From: an uncultured Clostridia bacterium
Lineage (GTDB): Bacteria; Bacillota; Clostridia; Christensenellales; Borkfalkiaceae
Direction: 5' to 3'
DNA length: 44,675 nucleotides
Assembly: GCA_944336975.1 (NCBI GenBank)
Contig: CALVLH010000011.1
Span: forward strand, 1-44,675
The position numbers were made by a program, and so were the translations under genes. Below are positions 1,683 through 18,504 of this stretch, one piece after another; within the stretch, counting starts at the first letter, position 1, and each line of letters opens with the position of its first letter. Below the pieces are notes generated by a model. The model had not been told where the DNA came from. It searched no databases and was given only the letters and a program-made list of their open reading frames with translations.

Positions 1683-2456
1683 ATGATTACGGGCAACTTA
1701 CTTGCGGAAGAAGGCGACATCGGCGAGATGATGCAGGAAGCGCTCTTTCCCGACAACGTCGAGTTTTTGGGCATGAGCATCAATCCGAGTCTGCGCACGG
1801 CATTCCTTCTCACCGCCGCCGTCATCGTGATCGGGCTCATCCTGCGACTGTTCGTCATTCCGCGTTTCAAGACCGTGCCCGGCAGATTTCAGTGCCTGCT
1901 GGAGAAGGCGTGCGAATTTGTGGAGAATATCGCAAAGGAAAACAGTCCGCACAGTTACGGGTTTGTCGGTTGCGTTTGTTTCGGCGCGGTCATCTACATT
2001 TCGATGGGCACGCTGTGCGAGCTTTTGGGCATCCGCGCGATCCTGGTCGATCTGAACGCCTGCCTTGCGCTGGCGGTCACGGCATATTCGATCATGCTCG
2101 CGGGCGGCATCAAGTTCAACAAACTGCGGGGGGCGGGCAGCGTCCTTAAAGATTTCTCACTGTTGCTCTCGATGAGTTTCCGTCTCTTTGGCAGCATGAT
2201 CGGCGGGCTGATGATGACGGAACTGGTTTATTCCGTTCTCTTCCTCTCCATCGGACTTCCCGTGTTGGTGGGCGTGGTGTTCACGATCTTCCATGCGGTC
2301 ATTCAGTCGTATGTCTACATCCTGCTTCTGACGATGTTCTACGGCGAGGCGGCGGAACCGAGAATGCTTAACGGCGAGAAGGCGAACAAAAAAGAAAAAA
2401 AGAACAAAAAAAATAAAAACAATATCGATCAGACGATCGAAAGGAGTTATGTATGA
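1683..2456 (+). CDS. atpB: F-type ATP synthase subunit a
   Basis: Membrane stator subunit that forms the proton (or Na+) half-channels next to the c-ring. 257 residues with several hydrophobic helices. The essential channel arginine is R167 in SMSFRLFGSMIGG (family usual RLFGN; Asn is Ser here), and the last helix carries the IQSYVYILLLTMFY segment. The C-terminus has an unusual hydrophilic Lys/Asn-rich tail (KKEKKNKKNKNN). The start is fixed by AAGGAGG at 1672-1678. First gene of the operon; no atpI precedes it. The stop overlaps the atpE start (ATGA type). Its N-terminus MITGNLLAEE resembles those of the c and b subunits that follow. Confidence 0.96.
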   Translation: MITGNLLAEEGDIGEMMQEALFPDNVEFLGMSINPSLRTAFLLTAAVIVIGLILRLFVIPRFKTVPGRFQCLLEKACEFVENIAKENSPHSYGFVGCVCFGAVIYISMGTLCELLGIRAILVDLNACLALAVTAYSIMLAGGIKFNKLRGAGSVLKDFSLLLSMSFRLFGSMIGGLMMTELVYSVLFLSIGLPVLVGVVFTIFHAVIQSYVYILLLTMFYGEAAEPRMLNGEKANKKEKKNKKNKNNIDQTIERSYV

Positions 2457-2731
2457 ACATGATTACGGCATTATTGGCAGATACGGCGGAAGCCGCGGCA
2501 AATTTCAGCGATAAGGCGCTGATCGCGATCGCGGCGGCTGTGGCGATCCTCGTCGCGGCGGCGGCGGCGATTGCAATGGGCATGGCGGTCAGCAAGGCGC
2601 TGGAAGCCATCGCGCGTCAGCCCGAAGCGGACAAGAAGATCTCCAAATCGCTCATCCTCGGGCTTGTCTTCATCGAGACGTGTATCATTTACGCGCTCGT
2701 CGTGGCGATCCTCATCATCTTCGTAATGTAA
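2453..2731 (+). CDS. atpE: F-type ATP synthase subunit c
   Basis: Rotor ring subunit; a two-helix hairpin carrying the ion-binding carboxylate. 92 residues, longer than the usual 70-85 because of about 20 extra N-terminal residues. The polar loop RQP is at 55-57 and the ion-binding glutamate is E75 in FIETCIIY. Helix 1 is alanine-rich (VAAAAAIAMG) where most families have a GxGxGxG pattern. The Gln of Na+-binding rings is replaced by Met, while Thr follows the Glu, so coupling-ion choice cannot be settled. The start ATG overlaps the atpB stop; AAGGAG lies at 2441-2446. A second ATG at 2459 is also possible. Confidence 0.95.
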   Translation: MNMITALLADTAEAAANFSDKALIAIAAAVAILVAAAAAIAMGMAVSKALEAIARQPEADKKISKSLILGLVFIETCIIYALVVAILIIFVM

Positions 2732-2749: not shown

Positions 2750-3280
2750 ATGATGAACTATGCGGCATTATTGGCAGAATCCTCGGGCGGTCTCCTCGGA
2801 CTGAGCTGGACGGATTTTCTGCTCCATTTGCTCAATTTCGCCATTCTGATCACGGTGGCGGCGTTTCTCATCTATAAACCCGTGACCAAGTTCATGCGGG
2901 AACGCAGAGAAAGCATCCGGAAGCAGATCGACGAAAACAAGCAGAAATCGGAAGAGGCTGACCGCCTGAAAGAGGAGTATTCCGAACGCCTGACGCAGGC
3001 GGACCGGGAGATTTCCGAGAAAAACAAGCTCGCCGACGAACGCATCGCGGCGCGTACGGGAGAGATGCTCGACGAAGGCAAGCGCCGCGCCGAGCAGATC
3101 GTCCGCCGCGCGGAAGAAGAGGCGAAGGCGGAGCGCGCAAAGGCGATGAACGCCGTCAAGGACGACGTCGCCGAAGCGGCGGTCATGATCGCGTCCGGCA
3201 TCCTCGAGCGCGAGATCACGCCCGAAGAAAACGACAAGATCATAGACGAATGTCTGAAGGAATGGGCAGACAATGATTAA
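2750..3280 (+). CDS. atpF: F-type ATP synthase subunit b
   Basis: Peripheral stalk subunit: one N-terminal membrane helix and a long charged coiled coil that holds the alpha3beta3 head still. 176 residues. The membrane segment lies around residues 20-43 (DFLLHLLNFAILITVAAFLI), followed by Glu/Lys/Arg-rich helix to about 150 and a short C-terminal part. Two adjacent ATGs (2750 and 2753) are possible behind AAAAGGAA. The N-terminus (MMNYAALLAES) resembles that of subunits a and c. The gene overlaps atpH by 8 bases. Confidence 0.93.
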   Translation: MMNYAALLAESSGGLLGLSWTDFLLHLLNFAILITVAAFLIYKPVTKFMRERRESIRKQIDENKQKSEEADRLKEEYSERLTQADREISEKNKLADERIAARTGEMLDEGKRRAEQIVRRAEEEAKAERAKAMNAVKDDVAEAAVMIASGILEREITPEENDKIIDECLKEWADND

Positions 3281-3668
3281 GTTTACCGTAACCACGCGGG
3301 AAGAACTCAGCGACGCCGAAAAACGCGAGCTGGAAGCGAAATTCCGCGCGGAATACCGAGACGAAGTCGAAGTGGACTATCATACCGACGCCGTATTGGT
3401 CGGCAATATGGTCATTTTCGACGGTAAAAAGGAGAAGAGCGTCGTCAAACTTACGGTGACGACGAGTCTCCCGCTCACCGACGAGCAGAAGCGCAAGGTG
3501 GAGGCGACGTTCGCGCCCAAATACAGCGAGGAACTGTTCACGGAGTATTTCGTGGACGATACCCTGTTGGGCGGGATCATCGTCTTTGACGGCAAGACGG
3601 TCTACGACGGTTCGGTAAAGAGCAAACTCGACAAAATCAGGGAAACCATCGGCAATGGAAAAGCATGA
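3273..3668 (+). CDS. atpH: ATP synthase delta subunit, rebuilt: N-terminal domain absent, C-terminal domain duplicated
   Basis: Position between b and alpha and the C-terminal signature ([25 protein letters not shown]) identify the delta/OSCP subunit. The protein has only 131 residues instead of about 180 and lacks the six-helix N-terminal domain that normally grips the alpha N-termini. It consists of two copies of the C-terminal beta-alpha domain: copy 1 about residues 3-52 and copy 2 about residues 59-108, roughly 44% identical by eye (shared TVTT, L.D..KR..EA.F, Y, D..L.G, FDGK). The first copy has lost the YDGS tail. The frame is intact and overlaps atpF by 8 and atpA by 14 bases, so this is an operating gene and not a wreck. 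Confidence 0.85.
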
Positions 3669-5162
3669 ATTTTCGTTTATAACGGACGAACTCAAAGAAC
3701 AGATCCGTTCGTTCAGATTCGATAACGGCATGAAGGACGCGGGGCGCCTGGTCGCCTGCGGCGACGGCGTGCTGACCATCGAAGGGCTGACGAACGTCAA
3801 GAACGGCGAGCTCATCTACATCAACGGCGGGAAATACGCGCTCGCGATGAACCTCGAAGAAAAACAGGTGGGCGCGATCCTTCTCACCAACGCGTACGAC
3901 CTTTCGGAGGGCGATCTCGCCTATTCGACGGGGCGCATCGTCAGCGTGCCCGTGGGCGACGAGCTGCTCGGGCGCGTAGTCAATCCGCTGGGACTTCCGT
4001 TGGACGGCGGGAAACCCATCCCCGGGGAAAAACTGCGCAACATCGAGGCGCCCGCTCCCGCGATCTTCGACCGCGCGAAGGTGGACGAGCCGCTGTATAC
4101 GGGCATCATGGCGCTCGATTCCATGATCCCCATCGGCAAGGGGCAGCGTGAACTCATCATCGGCGACCGTCAGACGGGCAAGACCGCGATCGCGGTGGAC
4201 GCCATCCTCAATCAGAAGGGGAAGGACGTCATCTGCGTCTATGTCGCGATCGGGCAGAAGATCGCTTCCGTCAACAGCGTCATCCAGACGCTGAAAGCGC
4301 ACGACGCGATGGACTATACGGTGGTCGTGTGTTCGACGGCGAGCGAAACGGCGCCCCTGCAATATCTCGCGCCCTATACGGGCACGGCGATCGCGGAAGA
4401 GTTCATGTACTCGGGCAAGGACGTGCTCATCGTCTACGACGATCTGTCCAAGCACGCGGTGGCGTACCGTACCATCTCCCTGCTCTTGAAACGCCCTTCG
4501 GGACGCGAGGCGTATCCGGGCGATATTTTCTATATCCATTCCCGTCTGCTCGAACGCAGCGCGAAGCTGAGCGAGAAGATGGGCGGCGGATCTCTGACCG
4601 CGCTTCCCATCATCGAAACGCTGGCAGGCGATATTTCCGCTTACATCCCGACCAACGTCATTTCCATTACGGACGGTCAGATCTATCTGGAAAGCGAGCT
4701 CTTCCATTCGGGCATCCGCCCCGCGGTAAACGTGGGGCTTTCCGTCTCGCGCGTCGGCGGTTCGGCGCAGTGCAAGGCGATGAAGAAGGTGAGCGGACAG
4801 GTGCGTCTCGACCTCGCGCATTATCGCGAAATGGCGCAGTTCTCGCAGTTCGGCGCCGATCTCGATCTGGCGACGATGGCGGTATTGGGCAAGGGCGCGA
4901 GACTGACCGAGAGCCTCAAACAAAACCAATGCGCGCCCAAAAAGATGTGCGACATGGTCGTATCCCTCGTCATCACGATGAAGGACTGGCTCTCGGACAT
5001 CGCCGTGAAGGACGTCAATCCCTTCCTGGACGGGTTCCTGCGCGACCTTCATCTCAATCATCCGGAACTCACCGACCGTCTGGAACGGGAGCAGACTTTC
5101 TCGGACGAAGACGCAGACAAGATCAAGGAATACCTTACGCAATATAAGGAATCGAGAAAAGC

Positions 5163-5166
<4 letters not shown>
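3655..5166 (+). CDS. atpA: F-type ATP synthase subunit alpha
   Basis: Non-catalytic nucleotide-binding subunit of the F1 head. 503 residues, normal length. P-loop GDRQTGKT at 170-177, preceded by the usual N-terminal beta barrel ([10 protein letters not shown]); the [13 protein letters not shown] segment supplies the alpha arginine finger. The N-terminal helix (about residues 6-20), which normally meets the delta N-terminal domain, is still present although that domain is missing from AtpH. The start overlaps the end of atpH by 14 bases; the stop overlaps atpG (ATGA). Confidence 0.97.
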
Positions 5167-7773
<2,607 letters not shown>

Positions 7774-8246: not shown

Positions 8247-10925
8247 ATGGACGGACAGGACGGGAACAGTCGCGTGCCTTGGCACGCGAAGACGTCGGAG
8301 GAAGTGCTGAGCGCGCTCAACGCGACCGAAGAGGGATTAAGCGATGCCGAGGCGGCGAAACGGCTCTCGGAGCATGGCAGGAACGTATTGAAAGAAAAAA
8401 AAGCGAAAAGCATCTGGAAGATGCTGTGGGAGCAGATCAGGGACGTCATGGTCCTTATCCTCATCGCCGCGGCAGTTGTGTCCATGATCTTTTCCGAATG
8501 GGCGGAAGCGGTCGTCATTCTCGTGATCGTCGTGCTCGACGCGGTGATCGGTATCGTACAGGAGAAAAAAGCGGCGAACGCATTGCGCTCATTGATGGAA
8601 CTGAGCGCGCCGACGGCGCGCGTGTTGCGTGAGGGCGAAGAGAGCATCGTCCCCGCCGAACAGCTTGTTCCGGGCGACATCGTCTATCTCGAAGACGGTT
8701 GCGTCGTCCCTGCGGACCTGCGCCTGTTGCAGGAATCCAATCTCAAGATACAGGAAGCGTCTCTGACGGGCGAAAGCGTGCCCGTCGATAAGGACGCGAC
8801 GGTCGCTCTGCCCGAGGAAGCGGCACTGGGCGATCGCATCAATATGGCGTATTCTTCCTCCGTCGTCATGTACGGCACGGGCGTCGGCGTCGTCGTGGAT
8901 ACCGGTATGCGCACGCAGGTGGGCAGCATTGCGGGGATGCTCGACAATCAGGACGAACTGGACACGCCGCTCAAAAAGAAACTCAACAGCGTCGGCAAGA
9001 TCCTGAGCATCGTCGGGCTCATCATCGGCGTGCTCATCTTTGCGATCGGGCTGGCATACGGCAGGAACTGGCTTCCGCTCCTCATGACGGCGGTCTCGCT
9101 TGCCATCTCCATCATCCCCGAAGGGCTTCCCGCGACGGCGACCGTCGTCATGGCGCTCAGCGTACAGCGCATGGCGAAGCAACAGGCGCTCGTGCGCTCG
9201 TTGCCCGCGGTGGAAACGCTCGGCAGCGCGACGGTCATCTGTTGCGACAAGACGGGTACGCTCACGCAGAACCGCATGACCGTCACTCATTTCGCGGTGG
9301 ACGGGGATTTTGTCAGCGGCGTGCCTACGCCGCTCACGGACGAAGCGTCCGCCAAGGCGGAACGCTATCGCGAACTGCTCTACGCTTCCGCGCTCTGCAA
9401 CAATGCGGCGAAGGATCCCGACCGTCCCGGCGAGACGCTGGGCGATCCCACCGAAGGCGCGCTCCTCTATTTTGCCGACAGATTCGGCGTGGATAACGAG
9501 GCGCTGGAAGACGATTGTCCCCGCGTCTATGAACAGCCGTTCGACTCGGACAGAAAGAGGATGTCTACGGTCAACCGCACGCAAGCGGGACTGACCGTCT
9601 ACACCAAGGGCGCGGTGGACGAACTTCTGCCGCTGTGCACCCGCTTCCTCGACGACGACGGGATACGACCGATCACGGACGAGGACAAAGAGCGCATCCT
9701 TTCGCTCAGCAATCAGATGTCCGAACAGGCGCTTCGCGTGCTCGGTTATGCGACGAAGCAGATCGGCGAAGTTCCCGAAGACGGTACGGATATTGAATAC
9801 GACCTGACCTTTATCGGACTCACTGGGATGATCGACCCGCCCCGCACGGAGGTCATCAAGGCGGTGGAGACCTGCCATACGGCGGGCATCCGCGTCGTCA
9901 TGATCACGGGCGACCACAAGACGACGGCGGTCGCGATCGCGCGGCAGTTAAAGATCTACAGAAAGGGGAACACGGTCATTTCCGGTCCCGAACTGGACGA
10001 GATGACGGACGAACAGCTCGACGCGGCGGTGCGCACGACCACGGTGTTCGCGCGCGTGTCGCCTTCGGATAAACTGCGCATCGTGCAATCGCTCCAAAGA
10101 ACGGGCGAAGTGGTATCCATGACCGGGGACGGCGTCAACGACTCTCCCGCGTTGAAGGCGGCTGACATCGGCGTTGCGATGGGGGCAGGTACGGACGTCG
10201 CGAAGGGCGCCTCGGACATGGTCCTCATGGACAACAACTTCACGACCATCGAATACGCGGTGCGCGAAGGCAGAAGGGTATACAGGAACATCCAGAAGGT
10301 CATTCAGTTCCTCCTCGCGGGCAACATCGCGGAGATCATCGTGCTGTTCCTCGCGACGCTGTTCAACTGGGAAGCGCCCATTCTCGCGGTACACGTCCTC
10401 CTCATCAACCTCGCAACGGATACGCTCCCCGCGCTCGCGCTGGGCGTCGATCCCGCGAGCAAGAACATCATGAAGCATCCGCCCGTCAAATCGGGTACGC
10501 TGTTCGAACGCGGACTCATCATCCGCGTATGCACGCACGGTGCGATCATCGGCGCGGCGACGCTCGCGGCTTACTTCATCGGACTTACCGACAACCATAC
10601 GGTCGGCATGACGATGGCGTTCACCGTGCTCGCGCTCTCGCAGCTCATCCACGCGCTCAATCAGCGTTCCAATACCGAGTCGGTATTCGCCAAGGGCAAC
10701 GGGCATAACCCTTATCTGTTTGTCGCAATGGCGGCTTCCGCCGTCATCCTCGCGCTGGTACTGTTCGTGCCGCCTATTCAGGCGTTTTTCAGCCTTACCT
10801 TCCTCACGTGGAAAGAATATCTCATCACTGCGGCGCTCTCGCTGGCGCCCATCGTCCTCGTCGAGATCATCAAGGCGATCAAAAGAGCGGTCAACCGCAA
10901 GAAGAATATTGTGGAAGAAGAATAA
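8247..10925 (+). CDS. Calcium-transporting P-type ATPase (P2A, SERCA-like)
   Basis: Membrane pump expected to export Ca2+ at the cost of ATP. 892 residues with the full set of P-type motifs: cation-ATPase N-domain at the start, actuator TGES at 174-177, the Ca2+-site helix PEGLPA at 291-296, phosphorylated D334 in CDKTGTLT, nucleotide-domain residues, the hinge TGDGVNDSP from 626, and a C-terminal bundle of membrane helices (NLATDTLPALALGVDP). PEGLPA and the N..TD helix 6 pattern favour Ca2+ over Na+/K+ or heavy metals. Start supported by AAGGAG just upstream. Single-gene unit between a promoter region and a bidirectional terminator. Mn2+ transport is an alternative. Confidence 0.93.
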   Translation: MDGQDGNSRVPWHAKTSEEVLSALNATEEGLSDAEAAKRLSEHGRNVLKEKKAKSIWKMLWEQIRDVMVLILIAAAVVSMIFSEWAEAVVILVIVVLDAVIGIVQEKKAANALRSLMELSAPTARVLREGEESIVPAEQLVPGDIVYLEDGCVVPADLRLLQESNLKIQEASLTGESVPVDKDATVALPEEAALGDRINMAYSSSVVMYGTGVGVVVDTGMRTQVGSIAGMLDNQDELDTPLKKKLNSVGKILSIVGLIIGVLIFAIGLAYGRNWLPLLMTAVSLAISIIPEGLPATATVVMALSVQRMAKQQALVRSLPAVETLGSATVICCDKTGTLTQNRMTVTHFAVDGDFVSGVPTPLTDEASAKAERYRELLYASALCNNAAKDPDRPGETLGDPTEGALLYFADRFGVDNEALEDDCPRVYEQPFDSDRKRMSTVNRTQAGLTVYTKGAVDELLPLCTRFLDDDGIRPITDEDKERILSLSNQMSEQALRVLGYATKQIGEVPEDGTDIEYDLTFIGLTGMIDPPRTEVIKAVETCHTAGIRVVMITGDHKTTAVAIARQLKIYRKGNTVISGPELDEMTDEQLDAAVRTTTVFARVSPSDKLRIVQSLQRTGEVVSMTGDGVNDSPALKAADIGVAMGAGTDVAKGASDMVLMDNNFTTIEYAVREGRRVYRNIQKVIQFLLAGNIAEIIVLFLATLFNWEAPILAVHVLLINLATDTLPALALGVDPASKNIMKHPPVKSGTLFERGLIIRVCTHGAIIGAATLAAYFIGLTDNHTVGMTMAFTVLALSQLIHALNQRSNTESVFAKGNGHNPYLFVAMAASAVILALVLFVPPIQAFFSLTFLTWKEYLITAALSLAPIVLVEIIKAIKRAVNRKKNIVEEE

Positions 10926-12864: not shown

Positions 12865-14292
12865 ATGTTTTACAGGCCAAAAGGGAAAGCCGTCTGCGCA
12901 GACGTCATACCGTTTTATGAAGACGGGGAATTCAAGCTCTTTTATCTGAAAGATTATCGCGACATCGGGCGTTACGGCGAAGGGTGCGATTGGAATCTGC
13001 TCACAACGCGCGATCTGGTGCATTATGCCGATCACGGCGCGGTGTTGAAAAGAGGGACGAGCGAGGAACAGGATCTGTACGTTTATACAGGCTGTTGCAA
13101 CCGTTGCGGCGACGATTACTTTATCTATTATACGGGACACAATCCGTACATGAAGGAAAAAGGCGAGCCCGTACAGAAGATCCTGCGGGCAAAAAGCCGC
13201 GATCTGTTTCATTGGGAAAAGGACGCGTCTTTTTCCATGCAGGCGCCTGCTTGGCTGGAAGCGGACGATTTCAGAGATCCCTATATCTTTTACGACGACG
13301 AGTCTGCAAGATATGTGATGCTTCTCGCGGGCAGACTGAAAAACGGCGATCCCGAGAACTGCAAAGGCGTCACGCTTGCGGCATACTCAAAGGATTTCCT
13401 GACCTGGGAAGTGAGCGACGCGCCGTTCTTTGCGCCGTCTGCCTATTTCACGCACGAATGTCCCGATCTGTTCCGCATGGGCGATTGGTGGTATCTCGTG
13501 TTCAGCGAATTTACCGACCGTTTTGTCACGACGTATCGCATGAGCAGGAGTCTATCGGGTCCTTGGGTCACGCCCGAGGTGAATACGTTCGACGGGCACG
13601 CGTTCTATGCGGCGAAGAGCGTTTCCGACGGAAAGCGCCGCATCCTGTTCGGGTGGAATCCCATCAAGGAGGGCGAAAGCGATCTTGCGCCCTGGCAATG
13701 GGGCGGCTCGATCGTCGCGCATGAGATTGTGCAGAACGCGGACGGAACACTGAGCGTCAGATGTCCCGACGAGGTTCGGTCCAATTACGGCGCGCCCCGC
13801 ATTCCCGAAAAGACCTTTACCATGGGAAGCGTTGCGCGGTCGGAAAACGTCTTCACGGTCGGGAACGAATACGGCAGGAGCATCCTCATGTTCGGGGAAC
13901 AGCCCCGTCGCTGTAAGATCGAAGCGGATTTTATCCTCGGAGGGAAAACGGGAGATTTCGGTCTGTTGCTCGGTGCCGATTTTTCAGAAAATCAGTTTTA
14001 TACGCTGCGTTTGGAACCGTCTTTCCGTCGGATGACGTTGGACAGGTGGCCGCGGAAAGATCTTTTCTGTCATTCTCCGACGGATACCGAGCGTAACGTC
14101 CGCCTGAAAGCGGGGGAACGTCATCGACTCACCGTTCTCATCGAGGACAGCGTTCTCGAGGTCTATCTCGACGACAGCGTCGCGATGGGGGCGCGGATGT
14201 TCGATCTCAGAGGCGAGTGGGGCGTTTATGCGATGAGCGCCGTCGTGCGCTTTGAAAATATCACCGTCAGCGAGGCAAAAGATGAGAAATAA
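12865..14292 (+). CDS. Cytoplasmic GH32 beta-fructosidase
   Basis: Glycoside hydrolase expected to release fructose from sucrose or fructo-oligosaccharides. 475 residues and no signal peptide, so intracellular. Likely catalytic set: nucleophile D13 in ADVIPFYEDGEF (this GH32 subgroup lacks the classic WMNDPNG), transition-state stabiliser D138 in FRDPYIFY, acid/base E198 in HECPDLF. A five-bladed propeller region is followed by a C-terminal beta sandwich (about 320-470; FGLLLGADFS, LEVYLDDS). First gene of the operon; AGAGGGAAAG just before the ATG. The exact substrate (sucrose, levan or inulin oligomers) is inferred from family and context. Confidence 0.88.
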   Translation: MFYRPKGKAVCADVIPFYEDGEFKLFYLKDYRDIGRYGEGCDWNLLTTRDLVHYADHGAVLKRGTSEEQDLYVYTGCCNRCGDDYFIYYTGHNPYMKEKGEPVQKILRAKSRDLFHWEKDASFSMQAPAWLEADDFRDPYIFYDDESARYVMLLAGRLKNGDPENCKGVTLAAYSKDFLTWEVSDAPFFAPSAYFTHECPDLFRMGDWWYLVFSEFTDRFVTTYRMSRSLSGPWVTPEVNTFDGHAFYAAKSVSDGKRRILFGWNPIKEGESDLAPWQWGGSIVAHEIVQNADGTLSVRCPDEVRSNYGAPRIPEKTFTMGSVARSENVFTVGNEYGRSILMFGEQPRRCKIEADFILGGKTGDFGLLLGADFSENQFYTLRLEPSFRRMTLDRWPRKDLFCHSPTDTERNVRLKAGERHRLTVLIEDSVLEVYLDDSVAMGARMFDLRGEWGVYAMSAVVRFENITVSEAKDEK

Positions 14293-16615
14293 GGGCAAAG
14301 CGGCGGTTTTGACGTTATCGCTGATCATGGTTTTAGGAAATGCGGGTTGCGGGGATACGACGATGAACGAAACGGAAAACGGAGTATACAAGAGCAAAGC
14401 GGAGATCTATTTTTCCTTTGAAAGCACGGATCTGCTCAGAGAGGAGATCTCGGGAAGCGAATATCCGCTCCGCTATATCTTTTCCGAGGCGAAATACAAA
14501 TCGTCGCAGAATGCCGCCAATCCCGACGGGGTGCGCGGAAAGAGCGCGCTGTTTGACGGATACAGCACCTGTTCGGATACCTGCCAAACGCGGGAATATG
14601 AAACGATGACGGTGAGCGTATGGGTAGCGCCGCGCGCGTTTGATACGCGCACGGACGGAAAACCGATCGGGATCCTCTCCTGTTTTGACGGGAGCGGCGG
14701 ATTCGAACTCGGCATATACAATTACGGGACGTGGGGCTTCAAAGCGGCTACGGATATGGGGACGTTTCAGGTCCGCTGCGAGGAGTCGCCCGTCGATCTT
14801 TATTGCTGGAACTATCTTACGGCGGTCTTCGACGGAAAAAATCATAAGATGTCCCTATATAAAAACGGAGAAAAGGTCGCCGAAAGCAGCTTGCCGGGCG
14901 GAAAGATCTTCGCTTCCGCGAAAGCGTTGCGCGTCGGCGGCATTTACGGCGGCGCCGTCGCGGAGAATGTGTTCGACTGCAACATCTTTTCGGGACTGAT
15001 GGATGAGCTGGAAATTTACGGTTCGGCGCTGAGCGAGAAGCAGATCGCGGAGAAGTTCGCTTCTCTGAAGGATGAATGCGGGCTAGACGTGTACGGCGAT
15101 CTTTGGCTGGATCCCGATCTCCTTGCGGATGACCGCTATGCGCCGCAATACCACCTGCGCACGGCGCAGAACTGGCAGAACGAAACGTACGGCTTTTTCT
15201 ATTACAACGGGTATTATCATGCGTTCTGTCAGCAGAACGCCCTGGCGCCCTATTATACGGACGGGCAGCGCTGGGGGCACTTTATCAGCAAGGATCTCGT
15301 TACCTGGGAGGAACTCGTCCCCGCGCTGATCCCCGAACAGAACGGGATCGACGACAATCATGTCTTTTCGGGCGGCGCGGCGCTGGACGCGGACGGGAAT
15401 CCCGTCCTCTTCTACACGGGCGTGAATTACGGCAATGCCTATCTCAATCTGATCTCGTCGGCGCGCCCTGCCGATCTTTCGGACAAAACGCTGGAAAAGT
15501 GGACGAAGTCGGGGAAGATCGTCGCAGAGCAGGGAGATCTCAGCACGCGGGACAACTTCCGCGATCCGTTCATCTATCGGGAAAACGGAGAGTATTTCAT
15601 GTTCATCGGCGGAACGGACAGGGAAAGCGGCAACGGCGCCGTCTATTGCTACAAGGCGACGGACGGAACGCTGGAGCATTGGGAGTATCTCTCCTGTCTG
15701 TACAGCGGAGACAGGAGCAGATATCCGTATCTGGGGACCTGTTACGAATTGCCCAATCTCTTCCGCCTGGAAAACGAGGACAAGACGCTTTCGAAGTATA
15801 TGCTCATGCTCTCGCCTATCGGCGGGACGGTCAACGGCGTATATTACCTTCTGGGCGATTTCGACGCGGCGACGGGGAAATTCACGCCCGAGCGGGAGGA
15901 ACCGTACCGCTACGATCTGGGGCCCGTGTCACAGGTACTCTGCCCGAGCGGATTTTACGACGAGCGGACGGACAGGAATCTCTTCCTTACCATGTCGAGG
16001 ACGGGCATGACGGCGCAGGACCGGCTGGAAAGCGGCTGGACGAACGTGATGACGCTGTTCAAAGAGATCTTTCTGGACGACGAAGGGAACGTCTGCTTTG
16101 CTCCGATCCGGGAATATCAGCTGTTATACGACGATTGCCTGATCGATACGGGCGGAGAATATACCGTCGCGCAGGCGAACGATCTTTTGAGCACGGTCGA
16201 AGGCGATCTGCTGAAGATCTGTATAGAAATCGATCCCGCCGAAGACAGCGAGGTGGGGCTGTATGTCAAATGCGAACTCAGCGGCGGCGAATATGTGGAG
16301 ATCTCGTACGACTGTACGGAGCAGTATTTCTATACCAGCGCGGCGCGGAGCAGCACGGCGATGCGCAACAACGGCGCGGGCGGCGGGACGGTTTCCGTGG
16401 AGGGAAATCTCGTATTTACCGTCTATGTCGACCGCGCGATGGTGGAAACTTATCTCAACGGAAAAAATCAGTCTACGGTGTTCGGATATAACCAGTCGCC
16501 GACCGCAAACGGCGTCAAAGTGTTTTCGTCGGGGAAAACGGCGAAGATCAGAAAAATCACGGTGTACCGTATGAACAGTGCGCACGGAGACACCGTCCCC
16601 GCATATTGGGGTTAA
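14282..16615 (+). CDS. Secreted LamG-GH32 lipoprotein (putative fructanase, altered nucleophile)
   Basis: 777 residues from the ATG at 14282, which gives a lipoprotein signal (KGKAAVLTLSLIMVLGNAGC); an ATG 30 bases earlier would spoil it. Overlaps the preceding GH32 gene by 11 bases. Order: lipobox, LamG/concanavalin-like domain (about 38-250; RGKSALFDGY, GLMDELEIYGSALSEKQI), GH32 propeller (about 285-600), C-terminal beta sandwich. The family motif WMNDPNG reads WQNETYG, placing E301 where the nucleophile Asp is expected; RDP (D428) and the acid/base E489 (CYELPNLF) are kept. It should act outside the cell on polymer or large oligosaccharides, or could have become a binding protein if E301 is not functional. 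Confidence 0.85.
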   Translation: MRNKGKAAVLTLSLIMVLGNAGCGDTTMNETENGVYKSKAEIYFSFESTDLLREEISGSEYPLRYIFSEAKYKSSQNAANPDGVRGKSALFDGYSTCSDTCQTREYETMTVSVWVAPRAFDTRTDGKPIGILSCFDGSGGFELGIYNYGTWGFKAATDMGTFQVRCEESPVDLYCWNYLTAVFDGKNHKMSLYKNGEKVAESSLPGGKIFASAKALRVGGIYGGAVAENVFDCNIFSGLMDELEIYGSALSEKQIAEKFASLKDECGLDVYGDLWLDPDLLADDRYAPQYHLRTAQNWQNETYGFFYYNGYYHAFCQQNALAPYYTDGQRWGHFISKDLVTWEELVPALIPEQNGIDDNHVFSGGAALDADGNPVLFYTGVNYGNAYLNLISSARPADLSDKTLEKWTKSGKIVAEQGDLSTRDNFRDPFIYRENGEYFMFIGGTDRESGNGAVYCYKATDGTLEHWEYLSCLYSGDRSRYPYLGTCYELPNLFRLENEDKTLSKYMLMLSPIGGTVNGVYYLLGDFDAATGKFTPEREEPYRYDLGPVSQVLCPSGFYDERTDRNLFLTMSRTGMTAQDRLESGWTNVMTLFKEIFLDDEGNVCFAPIREYQLLYDDCLIDTGGEYTVAQANDLLSTVEGDLLKICIEIDPAEDSEVGLYVKCELSGGEYVEISYDCTEQYFYTSAARSSTAMRNNGAGGGTVSVEGNLVFTVYVDRAMVETYLNGKNQSTVFGYNQSPTANGVKVFSSGKTAKIRKITVYRMNSAHGDTVPAYWG

Positions 16616-16638
16616 AGAAGGATAAGGAGGGGTTATTT

Positions 16639-18504
16639 ATGGATAAAAGAAAAGCGGCGGTTTCCGTATTGCTGGCGGGTGCGATTGCCCTGTCCGTACC
16701 CGTATCGCTGACGGGCTGCGGCGGAGGTGCAAACAACGACGAACTCGTCTATGTGCATTCCTGGACGGAGGAGGGACTCGGCGGGCATTACTATTCGGGC
16801 GCGTCTATGGGCCCCGTCTCCTGGTTTGTCGTAGAGGGGCTGGGCGATTTCCTGCGCACGCAGGACTATGTCTATTATACGACGGCGGAGAGCATCGGGC
16901 ATACCGCCGAAGTGAGCACCGTAAAACTGCGCTCCGACGTGACTTGGCAGGGAACGGGCGATAAATTTACGGCGATGGACGTCGTGAGTTTCTACTATCT
17001 CAACAATACGTCGCTGACCAAGTATGTGACGAAGATCGAGGCGGACGGCGAAGAGACGGTCAGGATCTTCTGGAACGACGATTATCAGCTGACCGACGAG
17101 ATCAAGACGTTGCTGCTCGTCACGGACAGAGTCGCGTGCGTTCCCTATAACGTCTTCAAGACGTTTGCGGATACGGCGATCTCCATCTATGACAATGCCG
17201 CGGAATCGACGAGCGGAAAAATGGAGACGTTCGGGAAAGAACTCACGATCGAGGAATCCATGCAGCTTGCCGAAAATTACAGCAACTATCAGGCATTCGT
17301 TCCCGAATATTTCCCCGCGACGGGGCCGTACACGATCGCAAATTACGACGCGAACGAGATGATCCTCGTCAAAAACGAGAATTGGTACGACAAGGATAAA
17401 GTGGGTTTTCAGCGGATCCGCCTCATCAACAGCGTCGGGGACGCGTCGCTGTTCGCGAGCATGCTGATCAACAATCAGATCGACTTATGGCTGAATACGC
17501 CTGCAAAGCCCATCGTGGAGAGCATTCTCTCTTCCAACGAGGACATCGTGTTTTATAAAGTCCCGTCGCCTTACGCGCACGGCGTGAAGTTCAATATGCA
17601 GAAGCGGGATACGCTCTGGACGGACAAAGTTCGCGAAGCGATGCAATACGTCTTCGATCGCGACGAGGTGCGCGCGCTCGCCTGCTATTATGCGGTCACG
17701 AGCTATACGCCGATGACGGGCATGACGGATACCGATATGGAGAGCTGGATGTCGGACGGCGCTTACGGCGAACTGTCCGAGCAGTATACCTATTCTTACG
17801 ACTGGACGAAGGCGGAAGAACTGCTCAAAGAGGCGGGGTGGTCGCGCAAGAGCGGAAAATGGTACGACGCGAGCGGAAACAAAGTGGAGATCGTCATCGG
17901 ATACGACGGTTCCAACACCGTCCCGTCCACCGTCGCCGAGGCGATCCAGGCGCAACTCGTCAATTTCGGGATGTCGGCGAGCCTGAAACGCGCTTCCGGC
18001 TATGCGGAGTTCTATGCGCTCGCCACGCAGGAAAACAGCCCTTACGATCTGGTGTGCGACAATACCTCTTACAATGCGTCCTATAACTATCCTTCGGCTT
18101 GTTTCAACGAATTTTACAATTCGGGCGTAGGCGCGACCGCCAATCTCAAATACCTCAAAGACGAAACGCTTTCGGGTTATAACGGGCATTCCTTCAAACC
18201 GTCCGATTATATAGATAATCTGCTCACATACAGCGGCGAGACGCTGACTTCGGCGGTGGACGATCTCGTCCTCGGAGTGGCGAAACTCAACGTCGGCATC
18301 ACCATGTTCCAGGAATGCTCGGGCGGACTTTACAATTCCGCAAAGATCGGCGGATTGCCTTTCCCCGAGGAGATCGAGAAAAATCACGACATCCAATACA
18401 TTCCCGAAAGCGGAACGGAAGATCATATCGCGCTCTTGTATACGATCCTGTTCTACGATCACGGAGCGGCGCTCTATAACGGGATGTTGTACCCCGCAAA
18501 CTGA
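16639..18504 (+). CDS. ABC transporter solute-binding lipoprotein, family 5 (Opp/Dpp type)
   Basis: 621 residues. Lipoprotein signal MDKRKAAVSVLLAGAIALS followed by the lipobox LTGC and a Gly/Asn linker, then a family-5 solute-binding fold (WQGTGDKFTAMDVVSFYYL, ATGPYTIANYDANEMILVKNE, KVREAMQYVFDRDEVR). The start at 16639 is set by AAGGAGG at 16624-16630. Family-5 proteins mostly carry peptides but some carry oligosaccharides; its place between GH32 genes and the matching permeases suggests a fructo-oligosaccharide ligand. The ligand is inference. Confidence 0.9.
   Translation: MDKRKAAVSVLLAGAIALSVPVSLTGCGGGANNDELVYVHSWTEEGLGGHYYSGASMGPVSWFVVEGLGDFLRTQDYVYYTTAESIGHTAEVSTVKLRSDVTWQGTGDKFTAMDVVSFYYLNNTSLTKYVTKIEADGEETVRIFWNDDYQLTDEIKTLLLVTDRVACVPYNVFKTFADTAISIYDNAAESTSGKMETFGKELTIEESMQLAENYSNYQAFVPEYFPATGPYTIANYDANEMILVKNENWYDKDKVGFQRIRLINSVGDASLFASMLINNQIDLWLNTPAKPIVESILSSNEDIVFYKVPSPYAHGVKFNMQKRDTLWTDKVREAMQYVFDRDEVRALACYYAVTSYTPMTGMTDTDMESWMSDGAYGELSEQYTYSYDWTKAEELLKEAGWSRKSGKWYDASGNKVEIVIGYDGSNTVPSTVAEAIQAQLVNFGMSASLKRASGYAEFYALATQENSPYDLVCDNTSYNASYNYPSACFNEFYNSGVGATANLKYLKDETLSGYNGHSFKPSDYIDNLLTYSGETLTSAVDDLVLGVAKLNVGITMFQECSGGLYNSAKIGGLPFPEEIEKNHDIQYIPESGTEDHIALLYTILFYDHGAALYNGMLYPAN

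Follow-up and report, generated by a model that had tools for sequence, protein, structure and literature searches.

We analyzed a 44,675-nucleotide stretch of contig CALVLH010000011.1 (the window), from the draft genome of an uncultured Clostridia bacterium of the family Borkfalkiaceae. The window encodes a complete atp operon for an F-type ATP synthase on its forward strand, with a gene for a 131-residue delta-like protein at the canonical place of delta/OSCP, between atpF and atpA. The genes of the operon and the two modules of the delta protein, which lacks an N-terminal domain (NTD) and is built from C-terminal domain (CTD) modules, are as follows:

1683..2456, + strand: atpB, subunit a (PF00119, E 1.5e-16)
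2453..2731, + strand: atpE, subunit c (PF00137, E 1.2e-14)
2750..3280, + strand: atpF, subunit b, 176 aa, upstream of and overlapping the delta gene (PF00430, E 4.1e-20)
3273..3668, + strand: atpH-like gene, NTD-less delta with two tandem CTD modules, 131 aa (PF00213 matches, alignment of the halves, AlphaFold2 model)
3273..3440, + strand: copy 1 (aa 1-56), a CTD module without the last helix, at the chain position of the lost NTD
3441..3665, + strand: copy 2 (aa 57-131), a complete delta/OSCP CTD
3655..5166, + strand: atpA, subunit alpha, 503 aa, unfused and in a frame different from that of delta (TIGR00962, 713 bits)
5163..5999, + strand: atpG, subunit gamma (PF00231, E 1.4e-70)
5996..7378, + strand: an open reading frame that we take to be atpD, subunit beta, 460 aa, from its place, length and familiar motifs
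7369..7773, + strand: atpC, subunit epsilon (PF02823, E 1.5e-9)

The delta frame opens with an ATG. As an initial sequence-only reading of this DNA had stated, it is intact and overlaps both neighbors: the end of atpF by 8 nt and the start of atpA by 14 nt. It is fused to neither neighbor: subunit b ends at 3280 with delta as a separate reading frame, and the CTD and alpha are encoded by separate overlapping frames that differ in phase. Downstream of the operon, on the same strand, lies a gene for an 892-aa P-type cation-transporting ATPase (8247-10925); two glycosyl hydrolase family 32 proteins followed by a family 5 solute-binding protein (12865-18504) perhaps represent a fructan-use cluster.

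We found that the OSCP profile PF00213 matches the delta protein twice, once in each half, at profile positions 98-171 and 97-150 of 172 – that is, over the CTD part only. The match scores 80.1 bits against a cut-off of 22.3, placing the CTD within the OSCP family, and the protein falls under the TIGR01145 cut-off (53.8 vs 57.5 bits). The two copies are identical at 22 of 52 aligned residues (42%, E 5e-16), and shuffled versions of copy 1 reached the real copy 1/copy 2 score in 0 of 5000 trials (z 22). The sequence-only reading had described the C-terminal motif set as present twice in tandem, at about 44% identity; a CTD-like pair is indeed present, but the motif set of copy 1 is incomplete. 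In copy 1, the second G of the GG motif is changed, the YD of YDGS is absent, and there is no last helix. All three features are kept in copy 2 and in the four nearest single-CTD genes (L015, L016, L017, and L076); YDGS varies among more distant CTDs.

An AlphaFold2 model of the whole protein (5-row alignment, pLDDT 75, pTM 0.54) predicts, with moderate confidence, a pair of beta-alpha-beta-beta modules without an N-terminal bundle of helices. The model of copy 1 aligns to residues 105-161 of E. coli delta, and models and fold searches recover the delta CTD fold in both copies, through residue 161 of the E. coli protein. The copies are joined without a linker, sharing a long strand (54-64) in the model. 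The earlier claim that this delta has no NTD is thus borne out by the profile matches and by the model, from which the normal OSCP bundle that would contradict it is absent. A further claim, that the N-terminal helix of alpha is still there, holds at the level of sequence: the window's atpA encodes the N-terminal segment that is helical in known enzymes. Taken together, these results confirm the observation of tandem CTDs without an NTD, with the correction that copy 1 is incomplete.

We observed the 131-aa tandem form on two contigs of another metagenome-assembled genome (G066, 7% contamination). One locus (L013) encodes an identical protein and shares 95.7% DNA identity with the window locus; the other (L014) encodes a protein of 91% identity and shares 87-91% at the DNA level. 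These may represent two strains in one bin. Over the whole delta gene, the window and L014 differ at 61 nucleotides and 12 amino acids. Copy 1 accounts for 28 nucleotide and five amino-acid differences (dN/dS 0.063/1.08, ~0.06), and copy 2 for 33 and seven (dN/dS 0.059/0.68, ~0.09). Both copies are under purifying selection, and the gene is real. The helix and hallmark residues gone from copy 1 are what might be expected of a gene decaying in an enzyme that can now do without a firm stalk, an explanation that is contradicted by these dN/dS values and by the completeness of the operon, and that we regard as highly improbable. We similarly rejected a pseudogene or a sequencing error, since the layout recurs and dN/dS is low. 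In particular, an upstream piece of the gene lost through such an error, which would have undermined the sequence-only reading, does not fit a delta gene whose start overlaps the last 8 nt of the b gene and which has the same layout at two other loci.

The window's genome is a draft (1.72 Mb, 93.7% complete), which leaves some room for an NTD detached elsewhere or removed by an assembly or sequencing error. A PF00213 search of the whole draft genome recovered the two CTD matches only. Using a profile made from seven clostridial NTD rows, we obtained no match at E ≤ 10 in any of eight genomes with an NTD-less delta (G000, G066, G091, G039, G089, G114, G004, and G001), whereas all 12 genomes selected for a complete or almost complete delta gave a match, strong in 11 cases. 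Seven of these 12 controls are independent, as the other five (G265, G239, G106, G035, and G334) contributed rows to the profile. The weak match came from G322, where delta is fused to alpha (E 0.012); the fused second delta copy of G239 matched at 4.6e-5. Weak, below-cut-off PF00213 matches in the NTD range of long unrelated frames (G013, 14-92, E 0.017; G085, 23-123, E 0.018; G074, 11-82, E 0.07) were taken as chance.

The spacing between the b stop and the alpha start agrees with the absence of an NTD. This gap is 374 nt in the window. Sixteen loci with a single CTD have 192-295 nt, and 38 of the 40 fusions whose stretch includes a b gene have -83 to 15 nt. The gap is 445-762 nt in 13 of 14 loci labelled full delta – labels that are doubtful for L128 (G316) and for the fourteenth locus, L146 (G167), which has no b in its stretch. 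Two fused loci, L081 (G112) and L085 (G037), have ~250 nt between b and the fusion, with an open frame there in L085 and none in L081; by eye, neither spacer looks like an NTD. There is no room for an NTD between atpF and atpH in the window, and the layout is the same at the two other tandem loci. We therefore rejected a detached NTD, which neither search had found, and consider an NTD encoded elsewhere or lost in assembly to have only a minimal chance of being correct.

The sequence-only reading had called for a survey of atpH in related genomes. We examined 121, identifying an alpha gene (E ≤ 1e-60) in 48 and a delta match in 47 of these; the genome left out of the 47 (G065) has a contig-end fragment without a delta match. 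Five further genomes with weak PF00213 matches and no alpha gene were uncounted, and two contigs identical to those of L013 and L014 (L109 and L110) and a locus without alpha (L118) were dropped before counting; one of 16 fusion references, L084, was omitted from alignment A3. Based on layouts called from frame length and profile range, an NTD-less delta is present in 46 of the 47 genomes with an F-type alpha and a readable delta. The CTD lies in frame before alpha in 33 genomes, eight of which (G011, G013, G015, G043, G050, G055, G074, and G119) were called from those two measures alone. Ten genomes have a single stand-alone CTD, two have the tandem form, one (G106) has a full delta plus a separate fused operon, bringing the fused count to 34, and one (G035) has a full delta only. 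A single CTD of about 75-88 aa is enough for close relatives. NTD loss thus recurs and is not special to this gene: it is the rule among the window's relatives with an F-type enzyme, and the fused, free single-CTD, and free tandem-CTD layouts interchange between relatives.

Sampling more broadly, we found full-length delta in most of the matches listed for the class, with CTD-alpha fusions in several other families. Of 398 genomes sampled across the phylum, at least 22, from at least ten families, encode an uninterrupted CTD-plus-alpha frame. At least 19 such frames, in at least nine families, are whole, and at 589-654 aa they are too short to hold an NTD beside the CTD and alpha. At three loci (L120, L121, and L122, in G322, G239, and G386), alpha is fused to a delta of almost full length whose NTD part is degenerate, giving proteins of 669-690 aa; a separate canonical operon is also present in G239. 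G324 (L130 and L138) and G106 (L098 and L099) each have two F-type operons, of which one encodes a canonical delta and the other a CTD-alpha fusion. A 261-aa delta in G334 (L116:3271-4053) has a normal NTD followed by two complete tandem CTDs that are 55% identical – a separate CTD duplication. The surveyed operons also vary in subunit c: an N-terminal extension, signal-peptide-like by eye, precedes the hairpin pair in loci of the same genus (L103, L113, and L115), order (L099, L102, and L106), and class (L131-L134), giving proteins of 106-150 aa vs ~82-92 aa in the window and its near kin. One atp operon (L015:2919-3467) has two adjacent, very similar subunit c genes.

An internal start within fused genes would yield a mix of fused and bare alpha. 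A Shine-Dalgarno run of at least 5 occurs within 12 codons of the alpha-equivalent start in 3 of 42 fused genes, compared with 19 of 32 for unfused alphas and 23 of 42 for true fusion starts; the background is 56 of 1197 in-frame start codons. Internal starts as a rule are accordingly not supported, though the three genes concerned (L089, L090, and L107, in G028, G095, and G001) could be exceptions. Since fused genes as a set give no sign of an internal start, three CTDs per F1 head are expected in these enzymes.

To place the tandem form among these layouts, we used a 75-row alpha tree, which was built by a quick method with SH-aLRT support only. The window falls within a clade of 35 rows (SH-aLRT 99) that are all labelled NTD-less, comprising 18 fused, 14 single, and three tandem forms. 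Layout changes 17 times over the tree, vs 32.7 with shuffled labels. Because the nearest alpha rows beyond the tandem ones belong to single-CTD genes, including one from Candidatus Scatosoma, the simplest origin for the tandem form is a free CTD. Copy 1 scores 123 against a relative's CTD and 124 against copy 2, and the CTD tree does not pair the two copies; the tree does not show which copy was the source. The nine fused alphas in the tree from the window's own genus fall in another clade, beside full-delta rows, so NTD loss probably happened more than once and the window operon is probably atypical of the genus. Same-genus genomes of the window type or near it are G066 and G065, the latter represented by a fragment with 71% identity over 264 residues.

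With no NTD, a CTD-like pair, and an intact frame, the usual stalk-head joint is impossible, consistent with the earlier proposal that this joint is built differently. On balance, we favor a reading in which the delta/OSCP of the stator joint is reduced to a b-binding CTD plus a partial tandem CTD, with copy 2 capping the b dimer on alpha and copy 1 providing an extra contact to F1. The alpha-gripping NTD would have been lost, the b-binding CTD kept, and a partial CTD copy added. Copy 2 is the likely cap, as it is a complete CTD in a delta that shares its NTD deletion with an engineered enzyme described below; like the CTD of that enzyme and of ordinary ones, it would cover the C-termini of the b dimer and sit on the N-terminal helix of an alpha. 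Copy 1 occupies the chain position of the NTD and lacks the last helix, and is a candidate for a second point of attachment at the top of F1, as opposed to a binder of a second b dimer. Its role may be minor, since single-CTD relatives manage without it. For both copies, all contacts in the assembled enzyme are ones that we infer.

The sequence-only reading had also raised the possibility of two b-binding units, which might serve the two b helices separately or a pair of b dimers. Consistent with this, both copies have the delta CTD fold as far as E. coli residue 161 and both are under purifying selection. However, copy 1 has neither the last helix nor the hallmark residues (second G of GG, YD of YDGS), and the shared strand and absent linker also argue against this idea. 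We found b binding by both copies to be unsupported, and consider it doubtful. Moreover, two CTD units are not what makes the joint work, because a single CTD suffices in close relatives.

In the literature, bacterial F-type enzymes have a single peripheral stalk, an arrangement that the delta NTD is argued to enforce; we know of no sequence mark of stalk number. Under the reading that we favor, the proposed steric limit would be gone: with the NTD absent from the pseudo-threefold axis, nothing in delta would hold the enzyme to a single stalk. A possible, though in our estimation less probable, alternative is a natural multi-stalk enzyme, in which separate NTD-less deltas on two or three alpha N-termini each hold a b dimer and an a subunit, giving a higher ion/ATP ratio for low proton-motive force. 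In the PS3 enzyme, as described by Ueno et al., the delta NTD occupies a dent at the center of alpha3beta3, and the CTD connects b2 with one alpha N-terminus (PMC12229609). Deleting the NTD and fusing the CTD to alpha (delta-deltaN-alpha) gave up to three stalks with three a subunits and an H+/ATP of 5.8, from which those authors conclude that the NTD limits stalk number to one (PMC12229609). CTD-alpha fusions, for which three CTDs per F1 are expected, make up 18 of the 35 rows in the clade that holds the window's alpha; this points the same way, as do the 12 delta chains that the PDB lists in six Chloroflexus aurantiacus entries (chains S and W in 9itk). However, the window delta is encoded by a separate gene, so a 1:1 ratio with alpha is not forced, and by cryo-EM 51% of the engineered particles had one stalk and 15% none (PMC12229609). 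More tentative still is the idea that the window represents a natural F-type enzyme with more than one peripheral stalk and a free NTD-less delta, its doubled CTD bridging or thickening the joints, and that stators lacking the NTD occur widely in Clostridia as an alternative design.

The window delta adds to the natural diversity of NTD-less stators and makes stalk number testable. Its NTD-less relatives provide a set of natural enzymes in which to measure stalk number and ion/ATP ratio, and the free and tandem forms bear on whether a covalent link between the CTD and alpha is needed. Our expectation is that hosts of NTD-less enzymes live on small ion gradients.

We compared the window delta with known stator-joint systems. 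NTD loss with fusion is already known; neither a free NTD-less delta nor a tandem-CTD form turned up in the main texts of the open-access literature searched. The C-terminal domains of the V-ATPase E subunit and FliH, which belong to other machines, gave low Z and no sequence match. A search of the window genome for a V/A-type E subunit, which would point to a second rotary ATPase, gave no match at E ≤ 0.001, and same-genus matches were weak too. N-ATPases are described as having no delta and a longer b resembling the E subunit (PMC5706428). The window likewise has no delta NTD, but it keeps a separate delta CTD gene and a b of 176 aa; its alpha falls under the alternate-ATPase cut-off (596.8 vs 750.5 bits), and its b scores 48.6 bits against an alternate-ATPase b model with a cut-off of 224.7. 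Mycobacterial b-delta is described as having a duplicated alpha-binding N-terminal part and a delta fused to b (PMC8617483). It resembles the window delta in having an internal duplication in a delta-type joint protein, whereas in the window it is the CTD that is duplicated and nothing is fused.

The window delta resembles canonical delta/OSCP (PF00213; TIGR01145) in its CTD, which is homologous by sequence and predicted fold, and in its place between b and alpha; it differs in having no NTD, a nearly doubled CTD, and 131 rather than about 180 aa. Ueno et al. name natural fusions from Acidaminococcus fermentans and two UniProt entries, and their engineered fusion (PDB 9jc1) sets a precedent for a CTD alone holding b2 on alpha (PMC12229609). 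As in these fusions, the window delta lacks the NTD, keeps the CTD, and is expected on the alpha N-terminus. Unlike them, it is a protein of its own, carries a partial second CTD, and has no covalent link to alpha.
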